Shown: piece by piece, positions 6,418 through 41,890 of the stretch
Layout of the letters: each line of letters begins with the position of its first letter
Numbering within the stretch: position 1 is the stretch's first letter
Source: Parapristionchus giblindavisi
Lineage: Eukaryota; Nematoda; Chromadorea; Rhabditida; Diplogasteridae
Length of the DNA stretch: 64,000 nucleotides
Reading direction: 5' to 3'
Assembly (NCBI GenBank): GCA_943737045.1
Contig: CALSFV010000657.1
Coordinates: 62,001-126,000, forward strand
Made by a program: the position numbers and the translations under genes
Notes under the pieces: model-generated
The model's input: the letters and a program-made list of their open reading frames with translations, nothing else
Told to the model about the DNA's origin: nothing
Database searches by the model: none

Positions 6418-7994
6418 TCGTCGAGACTGCCTCTCTGTCGAGTGTCGCCCCTCCCGATGTCAAGTATCAGATTAACATTCCTGAATATGTAAGTGTTTGT
6501 GAAACCGAGATTGGCCTGGTTGCAAGTTCTTTGAAATCGGTCATAAATTACAAGTAATAATTAATAATTTATCATTATGCAATTAATAACTAATCATAAA
6601 GTTACCTCTGGTGTGCTGGCTATCCCACGGGATAGCCAGCTCTGATTGGAATGATTGATCTTTGATCTCTGCAGCTAATCGATACTGGCGCGATCTATGC
6701 ACTGCAACTGGAGGCTGTGATCTACGCGTGTCAGATGCAAGAGAATCTACTGCCGAATGGCGAACGACTCGGATATCTGATTGGTACGGTAGATCAATCG
6801 ATTGATCGATATTCTCATTCCCTGATTCATGGGCGCCAATTCAAACGTCTAATATTGCAGGTGATGGCGCCGGAGTGGGAAAGGGACGTACGGTTGCTTG
6901 TATCATCTTTGAGAATTATCTCATTGGAAGGAGGAGGTCAGTGTGATTATTGATTGATTACAGTGTACTTTATCAAGAATTTTGCTCTATTGATATCGAG
7001 ATTACGGTATTTTGGTTGGTTTATCTTTTTTTAATTTAATTTTATTGTTAATTTATGAGTTTGTCTATCTATGGGGAGTAAATAATAATTATTATATTGA
7101 AATCAGTATAATTATTAATTTCGATATTTGCAGAGCCATATGGTTGTCTGTCAGTAACGACCTCAAGTTTGATGCGGAACGTGATTTGCGAGATATCGGA
7201 GCCGGAAATATACAGGTATGAGGTTATTCTGGCTGACTTTGACTCATACATGGGCGGGGTACCTGGAGCTCGATTCCATAGGGGGCATTCCAACAAAAAT
7301 TGATAATTTTACAGGGGGAATTCCATGGATTCAACGGTGCTTTTTCACTTTTTTTCCAATCTTCTCCTAAATCTCATTTTTTTACAAGGGGCATTCCACA
7401 GAATCAAAATTTTACAGGGGGCACCCCCATGTCGGCGCCCATGTATGCTTTGACTATTGTATTTTGTTTTTTTTTGTATTTTACAATTTTACGAAGAGCT
7501 AATGTGGCCTTTAAAAGTCACGAAAAGAAAATAAAAGGAGGGGAGAGTATGTGTAAAACGAGAAGATTTTTAAAGAATTTTATATTTTCTCAACTTTTTA
7601 TATTTATATAATGGGTAGCTTTTCGAAGCATACATTGCAATACACTCGCAATGCGAGGATTGGCCCACTATATAAGGCCAATTTTAGGCCGCTTGATGCG
7701 AAAGGAAGCTAAAAAATGACGATTTTTAAGCGAAAATAACGAATTGTGTGAATCAACCCACCCTATTTCGAGAATTGACCCAAAAAATTAAACCTCGATT
7801 AGTACGTTGATTGCAAGAAGCATCTTTTTTGTAGAAAAAGGAGTTTATAATGCATCGAATGTAGCTCACTTTACAATGATTTATGGAATTAAATACATTG
7901 TTATAAACTGTATGGTTGTATTTGTCAGGTGCACGCACTGAATAAGATGAAGTATTCGAAGATATCTGGAAAGGAGAACGGAATGGTCAAGAAG
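6418..7994 (+). CDS. let-765: SBNO exons: entry to helicase lobe 1, Walker A
   Basis: Exons 6418-6488, 6675-6783, 6861-6936, 7134-7215 and 7929-7994. The first reads (G)TC GTC GAG ACT, giving VVETASLSSVAPPDVKYQ, a family signature. The second gives ALQLEAVIYACQ and ends G|gt. The third supplies the P-loop GDGAGVGKGRT (6861-6895), read in a different frame from the ATG-initiated ORF that overlaps it. The fourth gives WLSVSNDLKFDAERDLRDIG and the fifth HALNKMKYSKISGK. Phases run 2-base entry, 0, 1, 2, 0 and all agree. The first exon needs a single G from the previous exon; nothing suitable lies just upstream, where a dispersed repeat (5949-6309) sits. The 7.2-7.9 kb intron contains short tandem-like stretches around TTTACAGGGGG. 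Confidence 0.92.
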
Positions 7995-41100: not shown

Positions 41101-41890
41101 TCAAATTTCATGTGTAACTTTCTTGGGACCAGTCAACTTTCTTGGGACCAGTCAACTTTCTTGGGACCAGTCAACTTTCTTGGGGCCAGTCAACTTTCTT
41201 GGGACCAGTCAACTTTCTTGGGACCAGTCAACTTTCATGGGACCAGTAAACTTTCATGGGACCAGTAAACTTTCATGGGACCAGTAAACTTTCATGGGAC
41301 CAGTAAAGTAGAACAGAGCCAAATTTTATTGATTTAATAATAATAATAAATCATTATATAATATAAACTGTTACAGCAACCGTCCCCTGCAATGGGTGGT
41401 GGCCCTCCCGGTTCGGGTGGTAAGGCCGCTCCCTCGCCATCTCTGCCCAAGATGCCGAAGACAGCGAAGGAGGAGATGCAGAAGGCCATCCAGATGGCTG
41501 CAGCTCGTGCCTCACGAAATGAGATTGATGAAGAGGTACACTGGGATATGAAGGGAGGGCGAAACATGAATTGGGCGGGTTTAATAGGCACAACCCCAGC
41601 TAATTTAAAGCTATCCTCTCTGACAATGATCTCTCGCTTTCTTTGTTCACGAGAGAGCGTTGCTAGATCGGAGAGAGTTTCAAATTAGGTTGGGGTTTGC
41701 CTTAAATATAGTCGATGCGAGTAATAGATCATTGAACGATATGCAGCTGAATTTTGTATAATGTGTCTGGAACGTGGATCTCTCGGGATATTTAAGTCTT
41801 CTTTTCAGGAGGAGAATCTCGGTCATGCTGAGACGTATGCAGAGTACAAGCCGGCCAAGCTCCGATCTGGCATGTCTCATCCTGACTCAG
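37706..41890 (+). CDS. let-765: SBNO N-terminal exons, displaced downstream of the C-terminus
   Basis: Exons 37706-37761 (RYSPPGMSTPGMNRVS), 38220-38324 (RPSVTPAGFRTIQQR), 38482-38608 (YTTYQRTAYPRGGMHPHA), 38864-38948 (YMVGRPPSALGRLQMPQQQ), 39075-about 39173 (AAYSPMPRGLAGQDSLRALS), 41377-41535 (GGKAAPSPSLPKMPK then AKEEMQKAIQMAAARASR) and 41809-41890 (ENLGHAETYAEYKPAKLRSG). P/Q/G-rich low complexity followed by GHAETYAEY..HPD is the SBNO N-terminal layout. The last exon ends TCA G and would splice in phase to the exon at 6418, giving HPDSVVETASL. Problems: no start exon is visible, exon 39075 runs into a hairpin with a stop at 39192, and the last donor is GA, not GT. Confidence 0.8.
38045..38140. 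repeat. AAT trinucleotide tract
   Basis: About 30 AAT units in the intron between the first two N-terminal SBNO exons. Confidence 0.95.
39173..39266. repeat. Perfect 45 bp hairpin at an exon-intron border
   Basis: GATCAAAATACAAGCTACTA..(A)TGATTTTTTT is followed by GT and then its exact complement ending TATTTTGATC. The left arm continues the SBNO exon frame into TAA at 39192-39194. The right arm has the look of the host intron (GTAGTTTGTAGTTAGTAGC). The expected donor is gone. Confidence 0.9.
39333..41320. mobile_element. TIR element with minisatellite arms, 8 bp target duplication
   Basis: GGCTCTGTTCTACTTTACTGG and its exact complement, flanked by AAATTTTA (39325-39332, 41321-41328). Each arm continues into a 19 bp tandem unit (ACTGGTCCCAAGAAAGTTG), about 8-10 copies per side, in inverted orientation. 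The minus strand near 39750-39645 encodes an acidic protein end (EPFDNGAEEEIEEEIEQ..), like the tail of a transposase. The 8 bp duplication fits hAT, Merlin, P or related types; which one is open. A dispersed repeat is nested inside. Confidence 0.87.
39756..40261 (+). repeat. Dispersed repeat, copy 2
   Basis: Full-length relative of the copy at 5949-6309, same orientation, with an extra ~135 bp (about 40081-40216) that includes CTTGCCTCATT..AATGAGGCAA. It lies inside the TIR element at 39333-41320. Confidence 0.85.
41586..41708. mobile_element. Hairpin MITE (family copy 2)
   Basis: From AGGCACAACCCCAGCTAATT to AATTAGGTTGGGGTTTGCC; the arms pair over most of their length (CTCTCTGACAATGATCTCTC against GAGAGCGTTGCTAGATCGGA). 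Lies in the SBNO intron 41536-41808. Confidence 0.75.

Follow-up and report, generated by a model that had tools for sequence, protein, structure and literature searches.

In cattle, KIT is said to have undergone serial translocation by circular intermediates, the same manner of moving a segment that we propose here for a broken copy of the sbno (let-765) gene in the nematode Parapristionchus giblindavisi. A cattle case is also mentioned alongside the human circle-mediated duplications in one published account (PMC7450558). The human cases described there are circular-DNA-mediated segmental duplication pairs (cSDP), for which the circles were deduced from the same kind of order flip; their joints show changes of 1-27 bp or one- or two-base microhomologies, and the identities quoted run from 93 to 99% (PMC7450558). 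The sbno copy resembles these pairs in its block order, which relative to the donor goes from A-B/C-D to B-A/D-C; in the origin that we propose, it would also share with them the joining of the outer ends and a single opening point. There is a further likeness in that most breakpoints of the described pairs lie in non-homologous repeats and some of the derived copies are pseudogenes, whereas the sbno copy differs from them in its dS of 0.27 and in joints overgrown by transposons.

A second human process, eccDNA-mediated duplication, is outlined as a fragment being circularized, cut somewhere and re-integrated elsewhere (PMC7188851). We propose the same succession of circularization, cutting and re-integration for the sbno copy, with the difference that here the cut would fall within a gene's intron and that the gene start is absent from the copy. 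Circle-mediated duplication is already known from human, and the comparison suggests that the sbno copy is a further case. A narrow search of one open literature library listed, among other papers, some on circle-mediated duplications in human and reviews of circular DNA; none of the listed papers deals with a permuted gene copy in a nematode, which is weak evidence of absence. What the locus offers is a readable reordering of a gene in an animal germline, probably by a circular intermediate, and the same contig carries an unbroken copy to set beside it.

The window copy and the unbroken sbno gene

The window, the whole stretch of 64,000 nucleotides that was analyzed, corresponds to positions 62001-126000 of contig CALSFV010000657.1 (C656 in the coordinates below) and contains no runs of N; the genome searched amounts to 251 Mb in 703 contigs. 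All sbno exons in the window, as read from the sequence and the splice sites, lie on the + strand. Their order is swapped: the exons at 6418-30896 form the later part and those at 37706-41889/41890 the earlier part of one sbno/let-765 gene, and these two halves (hereafter the C half and the N half; Table 1) join in phase at HPDS|VVET. The initial annotation had placed the exons in this way, with the C half starting at 6418, the stop ending at 30896 and the N half ending at 41890 (..HPDS + G), and had joined them in phase; we confirm both the placement and the join. The join is not due to chance, because the second copy described below connects HPDS and VVET across one 207-bp intron. The exons at 37706-41890, taken earlier as the N-terminal ones, are real sbno exons, but 37706 is not the start of the gene, as the second copy has at least 13 exons further upstream.

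The exons at 6418-10187 match the Pfam domain AAA_34 (1.3e-134), and a stretch downstream of them matches Helicase_C_4 (1.1e-87). The window copy shares both domains with the SBNO family (C. elegans let-765) and also has HPDSVVETASLSSV, which is found in the Pristionchus entomophagus protein, but it differs from the family in the absence of the 5' exons and the presence of several lesions. When joined, the 15 AAA_34 exons give 439 codons without a stop; AG and GT are found at every border, and the exon lengths are equal in both copies.

The second sbno gene, in normal order and with an open frame, is found some 230 kb from the window copy, on the opposite strand of the same contig. Genome-wide, both of the two matches to the HPDS exon are accounted for by the window and C656:347749-347907 (-), and the 29 matches to the 439 residues of the C half divide into 15 in the window and 14 at C656:343901-347541 (-); neither query has a match elsewhere in the genome, and no other normal-order copy was found. 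Thus, the second let-765 locus for which a whole-genome search had been proposed does exist, in normal order and on the same contig, but it does not make the halves two truncated duplicates: the window holds a permuted copy of one segment.

The part of the second copy that begins with exon VTRYSPP and ends at the stop comprises 46 exons in one open frame of 1496 codons (the script set one exon start 6 bases too far in, at a repeated ATTGAA, where the acceptor reads AA; the frame is unaffected). Thirteen further upstream exons, identified by inspection and joined by script, extend this open frame, a number that is to be read as a lower bound. The HPDS|VVET intron of 207 bp starts with GTATTAATAAT and ends in ..CATTGCAG. 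The closest protein to the second copy is that of P. entomophagus, with 81% identity over 98%, and by eye part of the upstream stretch is similar to the N-terminal region of this protein. An upstream exon of the second gene, at C656:349776-349741, seems to have a GC donor.

These upstream exons, at least 13 in number, are absent from the window copy. A genome search with 179 residues of the 5' part placed all four matches (4/4) at the second locus, with no second copy, and a search with 2.2 kb of DNA from further upstream returned a full match at the second locus only, along with 25 short partial matches. Because its first exons (at least 13) are missing, the inserted piece would not give a normal protein.

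To determine the block order, we used blastn to compare a 144-kb stretch surrounding the window with a 120-kb stretch surrounding the second locus. From the 135 pieces obtained we inspected those of length at least 60 on the opposite strand within set coordinates, and those of at least 150 bases on both strands. The gene pieces form two collinear runs: window 6383-34848 follows C656:347575->333771 (-) in blocks of 76-98% identity, exons and introns taken together, and window 37665-41910 follows C656:349678->347728. Both runs have the same strand relative to the second copy, and their block order is flipped. The window copy corresponds to the 15.9-kb segment C656:349678..333771, with the opening placed between 347728 and 347575 and the closure between 333771 and 349678; going by the sequence, it is a circular permutation of a 15.9-kb sbno segment with its 3' flank. 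The remaining pieces in both of the inspected sets appear to be repeats, and a larger inverted duplication around both loci was rejected, the flank matches of that length looking like repeats. Introns are present and alignable in both halves of the window copy, which rules out a processed (retro-) pseudogene. In large part through insertions, the copy has grown to 35.5 kb from the 15.9 kb of the source segment.

Table 1. Features of the permuted sbno copy and its joints (window positions)
Feature	Position	Strand	Remarks
Transposon fragment, its end forming the left border of the C half	5949..6388		Multi-copy matches
C half	6389..34872	+	Last 29 intron bases, exons VVET to stop and 3' flank, later transposon insertions included; blastn
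AAA_34 (helicase-like ATPase) exons, n = 15	6418..10187	+	Frame and splice sites intact
Transposon in coding exon (..LEELGLG^; exon ..MDVLEELGLG)	10725..12708		1.98 kb; 9-bp target duplication GGTCTGGGA; absent from second copy
Transposon in coding exon (EEEF^NPF)	16284..16959		TTAA target duplication on both sides
Premature TGA	29666..29668	+	CGT in second copy; codon 1354 counted from VTRYSPP
Last exon, stop codon TAA	30754..30896	+	
3' flank	34057..34872		93% identical to C656:334564->333771
Transposon cluster at outer joint	34873..37547		Multi-copy; nested elements, with GGGTTGC..GCAACCC as terminal inverted repeats
N half	37662..41909	+	Exons VTRYSPP to HPDS and head of HPDS|VVET intron with (AAT)n run; collinear with C656:349678->347728
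Intron insertion in N half	39333..41320		Inverted arrays of a 19-bp unit at both ends (by eye); not in second copy
Hairpin transposon just past right border of N half	41968..42564		Multi-copy

The part of the 3' flank at 34057-34848 is 93% identical between the two loci, as against 80-90% for most gene blocks (exons and introns together), and a conserved non-coding part may be held there. Beyond the 3' end of the source segment are two tRNA-Val (AAC) genes (C656:332496-332570 and 333536-333610), the nearer of them about 160 bases away.

Borders and joints of the permuted segment

Both borders of the window copy fall in one 207-bp intron, which is 1.3% of the 15.9-kb segment. The argument of the initial annotation that two independent truncations should not abut at one codon is supported. 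The left border retains 29 to 35 bases from the end of the intron, with 6383-6388 fitting the intron and the transposon end alike. A search with 6300-6420 scored 40 of 1475 candidates, and all 39 non-self matches (39/39) end at window 6384-6389 (query 85-90). The transposon family at this border has long inverted repeats, and at least six copies of it, evenly spaced at about 2.6 kb, lie in a tandem-array-like arrangement on contig C60:75012-88094. At the right border, the intron head, which includes the (AAT)n run, extends to about 41909 and is followed first by about 58 bases without a scored match and then by the hairpin element; here, again, all 39 non-self matches (39/39; 40 scored of 765 candidates) start within a few bases of each other, at window 41967-41976.

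Neither border retains 153 bp of the HPDS|VVET intron of the second copy. About 100 of these 153 bases match 7 other places in the genome at 77-85%, and this repeat of about 100 bp may either have been inserted later into the second copy or be old and have been lost from the window copy. We also considered homology of window 5828-5948 to the middle of the second copy's intron and rejected it, because the score of 22 barely exceeds the mean of 20 for shuffled sequence and was reached in 593 of 2000 shuffles.

The outer ends are set apart in the window: the 3' flank stops at 34872 (a C-half end that was extended by eye via a shared 17-base stretch), the upstream intron starts at 37662, and between them lie the 2.7-kb transposon cluster and about 114 bases without a match to either end of the source segment. 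A search with the cluster gave 211 matches (40 scored of 1584 candidates), those listed being about 77-97% identical, self aside. In the blastn comparison, the cluster matched nothing of at least 150 bases in the 120-kb stretch with the second copy, and the idea that the transposon at the outer joint caused the closure of a circle is therefore unsupported. Homology of 37548-37664 to sequence past either end of the source segment was likewise rejected (scores of 29 and 26 against null means near 27). By eye, a tRNA-like stretch is present in both arms of the nested palindromic element (36478-36560 and 37005-37090); ARAGORN calls none there, and no tRNA genes anywhere in the window.

Lesions, divergence and timing

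On the strength of its lesions, the window copy looks like a pseudogene. In addition to the insertions and the stop given in Table 1, the exon ..MDVLEELGLG has one extra base at its end (by eye), which shifts the frame, the donor of the exon ending EEEF.. is also altered, and that of the exon ending MTPSG is lost. The two insertions, the extra base and the TGA, all in the C half, had not been noted in the initial annotation. The HPDS exon is without a GT donor, reading TCAG|GATATAATAAT versus TCAG|GTATTAATAAT in the second copy. Because the HPDS donor of the second copy is GT, the GA after this exon is a loss in the window copy; non-canonical GA-AG splicing was rejected, given that the 15 AAA_34 exons are AG/GT in both copies. 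In a set of 24 exons (one of which was read by eye, not found by the script), the borders are AG/GT in both copies, save for the two insertion-cut exons, the last exon and the one misplaced start in the second copy. With its 5' exons missing, donors lost, exons interrupted and a TGA, the window copy is not a full-length gene.

Over 1456 of the 1496 codons, the rest being left out for gaps or stops, the two copies show 244.5 silent and 26.5 replacement differences (dN 0.0081, dS 0.271, dN/dS 0.030). Taken region by region along the four parts into which the alignment was divided, dN/dS is 0.035, 0.025, 0.027 and 0.033; dS is 0.28 for the N exons and 0.25-0.35 for three regions of the C half, and 23% of silent sites differ between the copies. 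In a copy that had been dead since the split, the ratio should be much higher; the window copy therefore descends from a gene that worked for most of this time.

When the 26 replacements were polarized by P. entomophagus, 17 fell on the window copy and 3 on the second copy, while 6 were undecided (neither or gap). The bias of 17 versus 3 has a binomial p of 0.0026, and 7 of the 17 hit residues that are identical in all 15 nematode proteins aligned. The excess of 14 replacements over 3293 sites is about 0.4% per site, or roughly 3% of half of dS; by this measure, the window copy lost its function recently. Because the 15.9-kb segment is without the first exons, we infer that the copy probably lost its function together with the rearrangement or soon before or after it. 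A dN/dS of 0.03 together with the fresh lesions would place the event late in the life of the window copy. As a control, Prp8 domain IV was found at one genomic place only, and by this one gene there is no sign of a doubled or hybrid genome as the origin of the two sbno copies.

Origin of the permuted copy and its alternatives

We regard it as likely that the broken, permuted copy came from a DNA circle, carrying a 15.9-kb piece of a once-working sbno gene, that was opened in the HPDS|VVET intron and entered its present site, about 230 kb from the unbroken gene. The outer ends of this piece—one in the intron that precedes exon VTRYSPP, the other about 1.1 kb past the stop—would have been joined end to end to form the circle. 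A single cut in the 207-bp intron, in its (AAT)n run or next to it, would then have opened the circle, and the opened circle would have been joined into its new site in opposite orientation to the second gene, after which the inserted piece would have gathered transposons, a stop, a frameshift and splice losses. The appeal of this model is that the swapped order, the shared strand and the two borders in one intron come together, because one cut of a circle yields all three. The source was probably a functional sbno relative, either a second paralogue or a very divergent allele, rather than the unbroken gene of today, since silent differences between the copies are many and protein differences few; such a source has to be inferred, as no second source gene with 5' exons was found in the assembly. 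Against the model stand the borders, which are unclean (153 bp absent), the outer joint, which is hidden by the 2.7-kb cluster and about 114 bp, and the position of all joints at multi-copy repeats, where assemblies can err. A variant that we consider doubtful is cut-and-paste without copying: a working second sbno gene, itself excised as a circle, would have been re-inserted opened at an intron, and thereby permuted and killed in one rearrangement; if this were true, the window would be a recent snapshot of gene death through circle excision and re-insertion.

The initial annotation had seen in the swapped order either a genomic permutation, for which a tandem duplication with loss of the outer halves was offered as an example, or a misjoined contig. 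A permutation is supported by our results. A tandem duplication of the 15.9-kb segment with two separate deletions, of the N part of the first unit and the C part of the second, would yield the same joint between 3' flank and upstream intron, and the many transposons at the borders could have promoted deletions; however, the two deletions, unrelated to each other, must both end in the same 207-bp intron, for which the chance is about 1-2% if they were independent. Moreover, the 144-kb stretch surrounding the window shows no remnant of a lost half of at least 150 bases, nor did the exon searches reveal one elsewhere. We therefore hold the tandem route, although it is the main alternative, to be unlikely and favor the circle, because a single opening explains both same-intron borders with one break. 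Two independent truncated duplicates that came to be adjacent by chance, each half being a separate duplication fragment, can be given very little credence: the halves are similarly diverged from the second gene (dS 0.28 vs 0.25-0.35) and end in the same intron.

A misjoined contig, for its part, is not needed to account for a copy that has its own divergence (dS 0.27), lesions and transposons at its joints. Under such an error, pieces of one normal-order copy would have been wrongly connected at repeats, and all three joints do sit at multi-copy transposons, repeats where assemblies can err. Against this, the window has no gaps, the copy carries insertions in exons, a stop and lost donors on top of its dS, and at least 13 exons are missing without a second copy of them, or another normal-order copy of the gene, being found in the assembly. 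The window copy is not a shuffled working allele, because it has 23% silent differences and lesions of its own, and we judge an assembly error to be quite improbable. It is also hardly credible that the split gene is still used, with its halves made separately or its RNA joined by permuted or trans splicing. The 15 AAA_34 exons would fit continued use, being without lesion, with all splice sites kept and a dN/dS of 0.025, but the HPDS exon has lost its donor, two coding exons are interrupted by transposons and another by a stop, the replacements run 17 to 3 against the window copy, 7 of them at residues that none of the 15 aligned nematode proteins varies, and the first exons (at least 13) are missing.

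For annotation, the locus carries a warning in that gene predictors might call the halves as separate partial sbno genes or attempt to connect them, and a scan for gene pairs within one genome with circularly shifted exon orders suggests itself. The window also contains reverse transcriptase fragments (Pfam RVT_1) at 27881-28249 and 43590-44264, which are probably from LINE-like elements. Toward its start lie two tandem arrays: a GA-rich one at 1-616, with about 14 copies of a 47-bp unit, and one at 2689-3293, with 6.2 copies of a 97-bp unit (97% matches), which by eye appears to be flanked by inverted repeats near 1700-1900 and 3400-3500.
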